Source of the DNA: Heliocybe sulcata
Lineage: Eukaryota; Basidiomycota; Agaricomycetes; Gloeophyllales; Gloeophyllaceae
Length of the DNA stretch: 64,000 nt
Direction: 5' to 3'
Assembly (NCBI GenBank): GCA_004369045.1
Contig: ML213507.1
Coordinates: forward strand, 827,361-891,360
The position numbers were made by a program, and so were the translations under genes. The notes under the pieces are model-generated. The model saw nothing but the letters and a program-made list of their open reading frames with translations. It was not told the DNA's origin and ran no database searches. Below are positions 36,493-42,945 of the stretch, in pieces (the stretch's first letter is position 1; each line of letters opens with the position of its first letter).

Positions 36493-37584
36493 TCAGGAGA
36501 TGTCTTCGTACTCCTCGTCGATCTCGAGGTACCTCCGGATATCGGCCGGCTCGATGGCGTTTTGCCTGCAGAAGTGGGACAGGAGCATCGAATAGTTGTC
36601 TGCACATACATTTGCGACTTGTCAGTTCCAGTCGGCAGCTCAAGCCGAGGATCATGGGACAGATGATACGGTTGAGAGATGCACACGCACCGGTCCAGCG
36701 AATGGCGGCCTCTTTCGCGAGCACGAGCGCTCTCTTCTTTTCCTCGATCTTGACAGGATCGCATGCGCCGTATTGTGCCAGCTCATCTTCGAGAGTCTGC
36801 AGCTCTTTTTTGAGGTCGGAGAGGTTCTGCAGGGCGGCTGTGCGCTCCTCCTACCAGGCAGTCAGGTGGTACCGAGAAACGGAGCAAAAGCAGCGTACAC
36901 TTTCGAGGCGCGCGGCACGCTCTTTCTCAATGTTGGTGCGGAGCTCGGCGAGCTGCTTTTGATGCGCGTCACGGGTTTCTTTCACAGTCTCCAGGCGGTT
37001 TTGCAGCTGCGGAGGTGGGGTTAGAGGTGGGTTTTTCTTTGGAGGCTATTGCTACTGACGACAGTGCCGCGTTGTGAGGGAAAGCTCCAGAAGACTGTAT
37101 ACGGTGATAGGGTTAGTTTGAGCGCATATAGGGAGACTTGAACAGAGATCAGACGTACAGTTGGAGGATCCGACTTTGTCGGAAGATACGTGACCGTCGT
37201 CTACGAGCGACTGGAGGACTTCCTTGACTGATTGGGATACTGTGCATTATATCGGGAGTGGTGTAAGTCAGCACCAGGGTAGAGGCAGTAGAACCGACCG
37301 ATGCCCTTCATTTTAGGTCCGAGTTTCTCCAGCTCCTTGAGCTGACGGGATGCTTCAGTGAGGATGTTCCGATGTAAGCGAGATTATCTACCTGAAAGAA
37401 GTCTTTCTGCAGGGAGAGTGTCATTTCATGGTTACGGTAGAATGAGATGAGGCTTTGTGCATACCGTCTCATGGAATATTTCGAGCAGTCTGACGCGTTT
37501 TTCTTCTGCGGACAGTCCTCTTGGCGCCTATCAAACACTGTAGTAAAGCGCCAGAGCCACTGTCAACATGTAGACACGTACCAT
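36493..37584 (-). CDS. MND1: Meiotic nuclear division protein 1 (Hop2-Mnd1 complex)
   Basis: Partner of Hop2; the complex stimulates Dmc1/Rad51 strand exchange during meiosis in the nucleus. Nine coding exons (37584-37582, 37527-37465, 37406-37392, 37341-37299, 37239-37159, 37094-37063, 37006-36899, 36850-36691, 36599-36493) give 203 residues, the normal size. The winged-helix N-terminus reads APRGLSAEEKRVRLLEIFHE, KDFFQ, LKELEKLGPKMKGI and SQSVKEVLQSLVDDG, ending in NFFWSFPSQ. A long coiled coil follows (LQNRLETVKETRDAHQKQLA and LSDLKKELQTLEDELAQYG). The helical cap is LAKEAAIRWTDNYSML. The first coding exon is just the ATG and the third is 15 bases. The gene is expected only in sexual species, so the organism probably has meiosis. 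Confidence 0.92.
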
Positions 37585-38275: not shown

Positions 38276-41200
38276 ATGGATTCCACTGCGGTTTCATTCT
38301 CGGTCTTGGACATCGTTCTTCTTGTTCTCCTCATCATCTCCCTCCTCGGTCTCATCGTCCTCGGCGTCGCCGTCTTGAAGTTTGTCATCAAGCCTTCGAC
38401 CAAGAAGACTCAGCCTACTCTCCCCCCTCCCGTTACGCTTGCAGCTGTCCCCGCTGCCATCAAACCTGTCAATGAATCAACCCCCACCGCTGCACCCGCA
38501 GTACGCGGCGGGTTCGTCCCCGCCGACGTCGTCCCTCCCAGTGCCGATGTCATTCGGAATCAACTCGAGCTCATCAAATGTGACAACCACCAGTTCGTCG
38601 ATAATTCCCTGCGGGACAGTGGTAAGCAATACGTTACATCCTTCTGCCCTCATGCTCACGCCCGACGCTTCCAGTCGCGGAAAAAGCTATTCAAGGACTA
38701 CACTCGAACCGTTCGACGGAGGTTACGTCTGTACCTTGCGCATATAGTGACCGCGGCAATTCGAAAAATGTTCCCGATGGTCACTCGGAGAACACCAAGG
38801 CTTCCGCACTCCCTGTTGCCTCTGTTCTGTTTGCCTCCCTACCGCCAGCGGAAGGTGAACGTAATGGTATGACGGATGATCCCACGGAAAATTCGATGGT
38901 TCAGAACACGATAGAAGTTCGTGTCCCTGATTGTAGCGTCGACGTTGTCTAACTGCGGCGCATAGATTGAGTCCAAAGCCACGGCTACATCTCTATTGAA
39001 GGTTGATGTTGACAGCACAGATGGATCACCCGTCAGCAATTATCATTCGGAGAGCTCGACGGCATCTGAATTCCCTCATGCGGCCGTATTGTTCGCATCT
39101 CCATATCAGGTGGAAGACTACCATGTTAGTAAGGTTAACGGTCACTTGGGATGCATTGTTCAGAATTCGGCTGAGGTGCGTACGCTGCTCGTTACCGAGC
39201 CGGCCTTTGTCTAATATATGAATGCAGATGAGCAGCCTTAACTCCGAGGAACTCGTATACCTCAACTTCGTCGCACTCTTCGAAGAATCTTCCATTGCTA
39301 CTGGAGACGCCGTAGTCGTCGAAGTACCCATTATCCAGGAGGAAGTCTCCCTGGTTGAGCAAGTGACTATCCCCGTCGTCTCTCCTCCTGTGGCCCCGGC
39401 GCCTCCCGTCATTGATGATGAACTCGACATTGTCGAGTGTGTGCATCTACTGTTCCCTGTGCCGGTGAGCTTGTTCTGTTTTGGTATTGAACCCTATTCG
39501 CTCATGCACACACAGGACTATACTATATTCCCTGGCACCGCCCTGAACGTACTCGATGCATCGCCCGATGTTGGCGAACTCGATATGTTCAATTATCTGA
39601 ACCTTCTGTTTCCTGATCAAACTATCGCGCAAACTATCACTGAGCCCGTACAAGCTACTATTGAAGACACATATACCACGACTACTGCGAACGATTTCCC
39701 GGCCCAGCTCGACTCGTTCGAAGCTATGAACCTGCTGTTTTCCATCAATGTGAGTGTTTCGTACTGCTTGGTCTCCCTGTCCTGCTCAACCTCTCGTAAT
39801 AGCACGCAGAGTCGGCGACCGCTATCGCTGACGCTAAAGGGGCCGACGACGAGCTCGACTTGTTCGACGCTTTAAACATTATGTTTCCCATCTTGGCTAC
39901 CGCCAACATCGAGGAGGATGAAGTTGAACTGGACCTGTTTGATGTTTTGAACGATCTGTTCCGCGTTGTGGTGAGCTCTTTCTTATGCATCTCTGGTACT
40001 GCCTTCTGATCCGAGCCTAGGATGAACTCCCGGATCAGGGTATCACGCGGCCTCAGGTGCAAACGCTACCAATCATTGTCGATGTCGAAGAAGAGCTCGA
40101 CGTGTTAGAGGACCTGAATGTTCTGTTCCCTGAAGTGGTGAGTACTCGTAAGGTAGCATCGATATTTCTTTCTTAACTACCCGCAGGGTGAGGGTATGGC
40201 GACGCCGCCGCTACAGCCTGCGACCGATGCGGAAGAGGATGTCTCCGACATTGACACCCTGGGAATGTCGCCTGAGAATCCGATCCTACTGAACGATCTT
40301 GACGATGAGCCCATCGCAGAGGAGGCCACGGAGATCAAGCCTGAGGTTAGGCAGGAAGAAGACCTGCAGGAGAGCGAGGATGCGCTTGAGCGGAAGCCAT
40401 TCATGAGCAACATCAAGATTTCGACCACCGACGGGCGTTCTGAGCTGACCGAGGCAAGTCAAACTTCAGAGTACTGTGTTACTGCAGGATAGCCACTGCT
40501 CGGTGCTGACCTAGCCATGCGAACAGACTCTCCTTTCTGGGCTGATGTTTGATTTCGGTCCCGAATCGTCGCCCTTCATCGGACGCGGAGAAGTAAGTGA
40601 ACCGTGGCTGTCCTGCACTTATTGTCTCATCGTCTCTGTCACAGATCATCGCTGCTCCTGTGGCTTCTACACCTACGCGGGACCTACTGGGGTCGCCGCT
40701 GCAGCTGCAATCTCCGGCAACGTTCAATGCTTCCAGACGGCGGCACGATCCCTTCGGAACACCCGAATGCTCATCTCTGGCTGACGCTGGATGTCTATCT
40801 CGACTTCATCATCAGGACGACACCCTCGCCACCCTTCGAGAGGAGTCGCCATCGATTGGGAAGTCATTCGCTGAGACGGCATATAACGAGTCGATTACCG
40901 TTGGCAATGGTATCCTTCCCGAGTCTCATGTCAACCCAAGATCGGTCGAGTATAGTTGGGACCTTTCCTCTTCACTATCCCGCTGTCGCCAGCGGACGAG
41001 TAGCGCCAATGGGTCGCCACGCTATGAGCCTTATAGGTCTTCGATGCCTACTGCACGGGCTGCCGATGTGAGATATACGGGCCATTCAAGGCGGGACACT
41101 GGTGGTGGGGCGGTGGGTACACCGCCAACGCAGCAACAGCTGCATATGCATCCCATGGCACAAGGAACACCTTCCGACGTGGGGAGCAGATCCTCTGTAG

Positions 41201-42945
41201 CATCGGTAATTTCGGTTCACTCGGTTGCGCGACCGGCACCGCCGACGCCGTCGAAAATGAGGGCCCTCGGCCGGACGCGCTGGGCACCCACGTTTACAAG
41301 GCGGGTTTCGGAGTTGAGGAGTCCGAGTCTGTCTTCCAGGTCGGGTGAGAGAAGGGACAGTGGAAGGTCGAGTGGTAGTGGAGTCAGTTCATCCTTCCTC
41401 ACTGCCTAAACTACTGCTGATGGGCATTGCTTAGTTTCCACCTGTCCGGTCCCGTGCTTCTCTAACATCATACGAGGCTCGCACACCTCAATGGAACTTT
41501 AACGGATCTATTGGGGGCAGCGGAGGGATCCCTTCGAGTCCCTCCTATTCAAGGACAGGGCAGTCCAGCGCATTTGAAGAAATCTCACTGCGATCGACCT
41601 CACCGCCTCGGCCTGTGGTGCCCTCTCCGGCCTCGGATGTATCCCACGTGAGTTGTCCGTATCTGCAGCCTATGTATGGATCACCACGGTCTCCTGTGGC
41701 TTCCCTCCGACGACCGTCGGCGCCATCTCCAGGCTCGTCTTCATCTGGATTAAGTCAGAGATATCTTCCGGCGCTCTTGTCCTCCACCTCATCACAAGCG
41801 TTCGCCCGTGCGGTCTTCTCGAGTCCGAGTCGCTCTAGTCATGCGTGGTCACCTGCGACAGGGCGAGGGCGACCAACTGCCCCTTCTCCTGAGTCAGTCT
41901 CGTCTGAACCGAGTCGAAGGTATCTGCCAGCACTTGTGTCTACCACTTCTCCTTCAACCGACACCGACATTGATGCAAGAAGCCCAAGCCAGTTCAGCTA
42001 TGTCTCGACGCCTCGTACGGGAGAGATCCGCTGGCAGCCGAGTCCCGAGCTCCCACCACCGCAAGGGCCCTCATCGCCACAGGAGCCCCCTGCCCGCCCG
42101 TCGACTCCTGTTTCTGGTACGATGCCCTCTCCCGACTCCCGGCCTACATCGCTCAGGCTACGCCCTGAGTCTGCCTACTCCATTGATGACCAGTTATTTT
42201 TCCGGTACGATGCGGTGCGAAGACCGGATAAGGCTTGGCTAATTGACGCTTACCGGTTTGCGTTCCGCCTGGAGCGCGCCGCCCGGGGAGAACGAGTGTT
42301 GCCTGATTACGGGGATGATACTCTCTACAAACTGGACGGTCGTTTAACCGGTCAATCGAGGAGGGTAAGAGCGGAAGTTAAGCGGCAGGAGTTTATGGAC
42401 CTCGAGGATGGTCGCCGTGCGGTGCGCCGCGCCACCAGGACGATGGGAGCTTTCGGAATAATGGAAGGTGATGGTCGTCCTGAAGAGTGGGGAGAGGCTG
42501 CGGAGGAAGATGAGGTGGAGTCTGACTTGGACGGTCTGTCCGTCGACAGCCAGGCATCTTCCTGTTCGAGCCAAGAGCCTGGCGGTTTCCCGGAAAGTAT
42601 CCTTTGCTTCCTGAGGCCGAAGAATGCGGAAGAAGAACCGAATCTGGCTGTCGCTGAGGCGTTTAATGCCGGGTTGGAATGGGCTCTCAAGGCGTATGAC
42701 CCGGAGTGGGATCCTCCTCAGCATCCCAACAAAGTGAGTCTTCTTTCTTGACCTCGTAAGATAATATTGACAATCGTCCGCTAGAATATCCAGGAGTATA
42801 TGTATAAGTTCTGGCGGCGCAAGCTGAACGAGCTAGCTGAGAATCCTGTGGAGCATACGTTTGATCAAGTGCCGGTGAGTGTTGCATCTTTCCAGTCGTC
42901 CTTGCCGTCGATTAACTTAGCTGGTCTTAGGATCTGCCAGCGTAG
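38276..42945 (+). CDS. Large single-pass membrane protein with seven ELDxxxxLNxLFP repeats, unknown family
   Basis: Predicted 1342 residues from 13 exons: 38276-38621, 38675-38916, 38966-39175, 39228-39464, 39516-39749, 39803-39970, 40021-40137, 40187-40453, 40527-40592, 40645-41382, 41435-42733, 42785-42874, 42931-42945. All introns after the first are phase 0. Residues 10-38 or so form one membrane helix (VLDIVLLVLLIISLLGLIVL), with no cleavable signal. Exons 4-7 carry seven copies of an acidic-hydrophobic motif, for example DELDIVECVHLLFPV and DELDLFDALNIMFPI. Exons 8-11 are Ser/Pro/Arg-rich and disordered. Exon 11 ends with an ordered part (YSIDDQLFFRYDAVRRPDKA, WLIDAYRFAFRLERAARGER). The C-terminus is NIQEYMYKFWRRKLNELAEN. 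One intron (40454-40526) has a GC donor; if it is not used, the gene ends at 40491 and a second gene would follow. I do not recognise the family. Confidence 0.65.
39246..40134 (+). repeat. Seven-copy protein repeat encoded across exons 4-7
   Basis: Copies at 39246-39284 (EELVYLNFVALFE), 39417-39461 (DELDIVECVHLLFPV), 39573-39617 (GELDMFNYLNLLFPD), 39702-39746 (AQLDSFEAMNLLFSI), 39848-39892 (DELDLFDALNIMFPI), 39923-39967 (VELDLFDVLNDLFRV) and 40090-40134 (EELDVLEDLNVLFPE). The consensus is D/E-E-L-D-x-F/V-x-x-L-N-x-L-F-P. Copies 2, 4, 6 and 7 end 1-2 codons from a phase-0 GTGAG donor, which suggests growth by exon duplication. Confidence 0.88.

Follow-up and report, generated by a model that had tools for sequence, protein, structure and literature searches.

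Several proteins are known in which short motifs recur along a single chain, among them Pex5, whose WxxxF-type motifs, short helix-forming segments with aromatic ends set in a disordered chain, form an array that binds Pex14. A comparable layout is described here for a gene of the basidiomycete Heliocybe sulcata, located on the plus strand at positions 38276 to 42945 of the window (the whole 64-kb stretch of DNA that was analysed, C5:827361-891360), which encodes a predicted membrane protein carrying six copies of a short motif. As in Pex5, several short and putatively helix-forming motifs follow one another along the chain; the difference is that the six copies contain no Trp.

Three other systems offer partial likenesses. 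FAM21, of the WASH complex, has 21 LFa motifs, which are reported to bind one partner, VPS35/VPS29 of retromer, with varied affinity (PMC4110399). Many short motifs per tail are common to both proteins, whereas the LFa motif in its commonly known form, LF-[DE]3-10-LF, is found in none of the six copies. RTN3L, like the protein predicted here, sits in a membrane and carries six short motifs, which are reported as functional (PMC5517149); the present protein differs from it in that the motif is not of the xLIR type (0/6) and, since no Pfam domain was found, in having no reticulon domain. Finally, the acidic activation domains of Gcn4 and Gal4, which bind Med15, are described as disordered and acidic, with hydrophobic residues gathered in short clusters (PMC8044209), a likeness to be set against the predicted membrane anchor, the fixed motif positions and the absence of any Pfam DNA-binding domain here.

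The repeat array

Exons were picked by eye and splice sites were deduced from the sequence without RNA. In the resulting model the six copies lie in exons 4 to 7:

38276..42945, plus strand: whole coding span, 13 exons, 1342 amino acids, TAG stop; frame open through 12 predicted introns of 49-73 nucleotides (nt)
39420..39461, plus strand: repeat 1, ELDIVECVHLLFPV, end of exon 4 (leave-one-out score 15.3)
39576..39617, plus strand: repeat 2, ELDMFNYLNLLFPD, exon 5 (leave-one-out score 25.1)
39705..39746, plus strand: repeat 3, QLDSFEAMNLLFSI, end of exon 5 (leave-one-out score 23.9)
39851..39892, plus strand: repeat 4, ELDLFDALNIMFPI, exon 6, predicted helical by AlphaFold (leave-one-out score 27.5)
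39926..39967, plus strand: repeat 5, ELDLFDVLNDLFRV, end of exon 6, predicted helical by AlphaFold (leave-one-out score 25.4)
40093..40134, plus strand: repeat 6, ELDVLEDLNVLFPE, end of exon 7 (leave-one-out score 20.4)

The copies were assessed by a leave-one-out procedure in which a profile of five copies searches for the sixth, with 400 shuffled proteins as the control. Each of the six was recovered, and no shuffled protein reached an equal score. The original prediction had counted seven repeats in exons 4-7; six of these are firm by this measure (0/400), whereas the seventh, at amino acid 274 (ELVYLNFVALF), was rejected as being at chance level, 3997 of 5000 shuffles of its own residues scoring as well and 4.5 such scores being expected per shuffled protein. 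A segment at amino acid 604, ELTETLLSGLMF, was also at chance level (2.9 such scores expected per shuffled protein). At amino acid 96 there is a degenerate candidate copy, QLELIKCDNHQF, whose score a shuffled protein would be expected to reach 0.07 times.

The consensus of the six copies is [EQ]LDxFxxLNxLF(P). Leu-2, Asp-3 and Phe-12 are invariant, Asn-9 and Leu-11 are present in five copies, columns 3, 6 and 9 repeatedly carry polar residues, and column 10 is variable (L, L, L, I, D, V). A strict pattern, [EQ]LDxx[DEN]x[LMV][NH]x[LM]F, has six matches in the protein; among 200,000 shuffles of residues 267-520 it occurred once in seven shuffles and more than once in none. These significant copies stand in an otherwise divergent stretch, the linkers differing in length and, judged by eye, in sequence, with an uneven copy-to-copy spacing of 35, 43, 31, 25 and 39 residues. 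When exons 4-7 were compared in pairs, none of 500 shuffles was as good for five of the six pairs, the remaining pair (exons 4 and 5) being equalled by 12 of 500. At the DNA level, five of the copies form one family of 41-nt repeats with 61-80% identity to the reference copy, repeat 1 being too divergent to join it, and Tandem Repeats Finder reported no array at the locus.

Probable exon duplication and the apparent age of the array

The introns of the array are placed as follows:

39465..40186, plus strand: introns 4-7 (39465-39515, 39750-39802, 39971-40020, 40138-40186) with exons 5-7 between them, each intron in phase 0 and three codons past the motif Phe

In exons 4, 5, 6 and 7 alike, the last Phe of the last copy stands exactly three codons before the phase-0 intron (4/4), an agreement for which the chance expectation is about 2e-6 under uniform placement and an assumed 30-codon last gap; no intron follows the other two copies. 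That four copies adjoin a phase-0 GTGAG donor, as had been claimed, is borne out, the distance being two codons past the Pro position. In addition, the Leu codons agree by motif column, with 21 matching pairs, a number reached by 5 of 20,000 permutations. This column-wise agreement favours common descent from one unit over convergence, although local codon preference could contribute to it. The single offset shared by all four array introns supports a spread by exon duplication, and the two observations together lend support to exon-borne repeats, as first described, that were multiplied by phase-compatible duplication.

Between copies, the differences per site over all 12 codons amount to 0.59 for synonymous (pS) and 0.25 for non-synonymous (pN) positions, and in eight columns picked afterwards as conserved to 0.68 and 0.12, respectively. 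High synonymous together with lower non-synonymous change gives the impression of old duplications and of a motif constrained at the protein level. The residual similarity of introns 4-7 is not above chance, one of six pairs falling below 0.05 (0.027) as compared with 5 of 66 among all intron pairs, and such a loss of intron similarity would be compatible with old duplications.

A second duplication in the gene, overlooked in the original prediction and involving a motif different from the main one, is found upstream of the array:

38749..38838, plus strand: exon 2 copy of an HSExxxASxxPxAxVLFAS segment, amino acids 141-170, in ungapped alignment with exon 3
39011..39100, plus strand: counterpart of that segment in exon 3, amino acids 212-241, in ungapped alignment with exon 2

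The ungapped alignment of the two has a score of 59, equalled by 1 of 2000 shuffles. Kinship of this segment with the main motif was considered and found unconvincing, 29 of 500 shuffles being as good for the best (exons 3 and 6) of the eight pairings between exons 2-3 and exons 4-7.

Gene model

The joined 13-exon model contains no internal stop over its 1342 codons, so that the coding span first proposed stays open from end to end. Introns 2-12 are in phase 0 (11 of 12), as stated previously for the later introns, and intron 1 is in phase 1. If the share of phase-0 introns is assumed to lie between 0.4 and 0.7, 11 among 12 would arise by chance with a probability between 0.0003 and 0.085, and the bias is by itself not decisive. 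Eleven introns have GT-AG ends and measure 49-56 nt each. For intron 5, the acceptor TAG at 39802 was preferred, since it leaves the frame intact, to a CAG close by. By codon score, the chosen frame ranked first of six in 11 of the 12 exons tested (all except the 15-nt exon 13), the exception being exon 10, where another plus frame was slightly higher (-0.033 versus -0.067 for the chosen frame); scores were low in exons 2, 3, 10 and 11.

Two introns deserve separate mention. Intron 8 (40454-40526) has an apparent GC-AG donor (GAG/GCAAGT) and, with 73 nt, is the longest, compared with 49-56 nt in the other eleven. Intron 4 (39465-39515, 51 nt) sits within an open frame at 39222-39875, and since its length is a multiple of three, its retention would keep the frame and add 17 residues.

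Acidic region, predicted membrane segment and predicted helices

The protein begins with one strong hydrophobic segment, which agrees with the single N-terminal membrane helix of the original prediction and is itself a prediction:

38312..38389, plus strand: predicted membrane helix, about amino acids 13-38, likely N-out/C-in from its flanking charges (Kyte-Doolittle 19-residue maximum 3.35)

Acidic residues (D2, D12) precede the segment, and K35, K39, K43 and K44 lie within or after it. By the positive-inside rule, the positive flank of a membrane segment faces the cytosol, so that the lysines on the C-terminal side suggest an N-out/C-in orientation with a cytosolic tail. The array lies within an acidic region of this tail (amino acids 267-518) with a net charge of -49, in which 3 Lys/Arg stand against 52 Asp/Glu, and for this reason an attachment of the motifs to acidic lipid would be disfavoured.

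Exon 6, modelled alone with AlphaFold, gave a mean predicted local distance difference test (pLDDT) value of 61.6; averaged in blocks of 10 residues, the values from residue 21 onwards are 63-71. Helices were placed at exon residues 14-33, covering repeat 4, and 44-55, covering repeat 5 except for its first two residues. Both exon 6 copies are thus predicted to be helical, with moderate confidence.

A proposed docking array on a membrane scaffold

Taken together, these features are read as those of an N-out/C-in single-pass membrane scaffold, with a cytosolic tail bearing a multivalent array of helical docking motifs, a reading to which a probability of about 0.5 is given. In this model, the tail would display the acidic region with its six [EQ]LDxFxxLNxLF(P) copies, each motif folding as a helix of about three turns that would fit into a groove on some soluble protein. 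With several copies, a membrane-anchored chain could provide higher avidity, or could collect several partner molecules at the membrane. The copy number would have risen as one unit, comprising a linker, the motif, three further codons and a phase-0 intron, was duplicated. The recurrence of fixed columns (Leu-2, Asp-3, Phe-12, Asn-9, Leu-11) suggests a defined interface and not a mere effect of bulk composition. Docking on the cytosolic face, as first put forward, is plausible in view of the charges around the hydrophobic segment, the helices predicted on both exon 6 copies and the apparent protein-level constraint between copies.

Several points weigh against this interpretation. The contrast between pN and pS is partly built in, because the motif was found by its conservation, and in the four variable columns pN (0.53) exceeds pS (0.45). 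Duplicates might also be retained without function. The AlphaFold evidence comes from one exon and one sequence, with a predicted template modelling score (pTM) of 0.32, and the helical model of the C-terminal region, built from its exon 11 part, is of low confidence (mean pLDDT 36.5) and uninformative. The repeats had been described as amphipathic, a claim that finds no statistical support, as the helical hydrophobic moment does not rise above shuffles in any of the six copies (share as good 0.12-0.75). Moreover, no homologue was found for the whole protein in Pfam or for its parts among PDB sequences and in the same genome.

A more ambitious form of the docking reading, possible although doubtful, is that the [EQ]LDxFxxLNxLF motif of this fungal membrane scaffold founds a class of helical docking motifs of its own, with a dedicated receptor and a valency tuned by the duplication of symmetric exons. 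If docking holds true, the binding valency of a scaffold would be set by exon number, and the record of its duplication would be kept in intron positions. The motif is sharp enough for searches of fungal proteomes and for use as a bait peptide, and the partner should therefore be findable.

Alternative readings

Among the alternatives, the one that survives best, although it is unlikely, takes the array as a region resembling acidic activation domains, which would bind coactivators (Mediator Med15) as part of a membrane-tethered regulator freed by cleavage. Hydrophobic clusters do stand in an acidic background in residues 267-518 (3 Lys/Arg, 52 Asp/Glu; net charge -49). The activation element of Gcn4 is WxxLF, which is resembled by the PhixxLF (Phi, hydrophobic) of the copies, present in all six as against 0.83 in shuffled copies and the fact that keeps this explanation alive; PhixxPhiPhi is also found in 6/6 (4.77 shuffled), whereas WxxLF itself occurs in none. 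Short hydrophobic segments in acidic surroundings are a reported feature of Med15 binding, and yet Med15 is described as reading hydrophobic character over specific sequence (PMC8044209), while fixed positions recur here. Furthermore, Pfam reveals no DNA-binding domain and the protein starts with a hydrophobic segment.

Self-association of the repeats, within or between chains, could alternatively cluster the protein in helical bundles or condensates without any outside partner. The presence of several similar hydrophobic helices per chain, two of them predicted in exon 6, would suit such a role. However, the pTM of 0.32 carries no packing information, acidic helices of like charge would be expected to repel each other, and the spacing of the copies (35, 43, 31, 25, 39 residues) is uneven, unlike that of structural repeats. 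This explanation is considered improbable.

It is less probable still that the repeats bind nothing and were merely left behind when exons were duplicated in a disordered, fast-evolving part of the protein. The history of duplication is clear, exons 2-3 provide a second instance in the same gene, and no relatives appeared in what was searched, all of which such a leftover would explain; against it, the motif residues persist despite synonymous change of 0.59 while the linkers look different by eye, a contrast that is itself partly built in.

The remaining candidates were compared with the copies as regular expressions in their commonly known forms (class 1b PhixxPhixxPhixPhi, xLIR, LFa, clathrin box, AP-2 alpha-ear, LD and FFAT), and the export-signal, Atg8 and retromer-LFa readings fit poorly on this comparison of sequences. 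CRM1 nuclear export signals of class 1b spacing are very unlikely: the pattern fits 5/6 copies against 1.81 in shuffled ones, but it is missing from one copy, class 1a spacing occurs in 0/6, the last class 1b hydrophobic place falls on variable column 10 with the conserved [LM]F pair outside, and a chain anchored in a membrane would hardly need six export signals. Just as improbable is a multivalent selective-autophagy receptor with Atg8-interacting motifs (LIR/AIM), whose membrane anchor and six motifs would match the layout reported for RTN3L with its six LIRs (PMC5517149), given that [WFY]xx[ILV], found with flanks in 4/6 copies, averages 2.86/6 after shuffling and that the stricter xLIR occurs in 0/6. 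The clathrin box, AP-2 alpha-ear (DP[FW], FxDxF), LD and FFAT forms, as written in these expressions, were each absent from all six copies, and a plain DLF is found in 2/6 (0.35 shuffled).

Searches for relatives

Neither half of the protein, the two covering it entirely, matched a Pfam family at E values up to 10, under filters that drop most matches above about 0.1. Among PDB sequences, the array had no match up to E 10 and the C-terminal region had two, at E 1.4 and 1.5, neither of them credible. The repeat profile gave six matches among PDB sequences, the best being a segment of CNOT7/CAF1, EEELDFFEILRLFFPV, at E 0.066. CNOT7/CAF1 is a folded nuclease in which the segment is a single one and not part of an array; the E-value is compatible with chance, to which the match is probably due.

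In the same genome (31,634,890 bases in 51 contigs), where search counts are lower bounds, the search covered the array, exons 2-3 and the C-terminal 232 amino acids, and for none of these did it find anything beyond the gene itself. The C-terminal 232 amino acids gave 36 pattern matches in prokaryote contigs and three in viral contigs, none confirmed; a fungal gene would hardly be expected in either. The motif, written in six ways, occurs in none of 5.39 million papers, and among the papers listed on basidiomycete repeat membrane proteins, the septal pore cap and exon duplication none describes the protein in its title or abstract opening. SNB1, for which seven predicted membrane helices are reported (PMC10949477), was set aside as different.

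Remaining parts of the protein and neighbouring genes

Downstream of the array, two further regions can be delimited:

40645..42139, plus strand: Ser/Pro/Thr-rich stretch by composition, amino acids 630 to 1110, including exon 10, intron 10 (41383-41434) and the first part of exon 11
42140..42945, plus strand: C-terminal region, last 232 amino acids, including introns 11 and 12, of no known family (no Pfam match; PDB matches at E 1.4 and 1.5 only)

Ser, Pro and Thr make up 40% of residues 630-1140, over which the net charge is +18, and the Ser/Pro/Thr-rich stretch is probably disordered.

The neighbouring genes are ordinary and, like the introns of about 50 nt, suggest a fungal genome. Downstream lies a ribosomal RNA adenine dimethylase-like gene (PF00398, E 4.6e-06), followed by a Ctf4 C-terminal domain (PF20946, E 4.3e-16), and Rfam gave no match at gathering score within the 64-kb window. 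Upstream, on the minus strand at about 37055-37383, there is a Mnd1-like gene (PF03962, E 1.7e-10). This gene and the repeat gene point away from each other in transcription, and some upstream DNA, several hundred bases in length, may be common to both.

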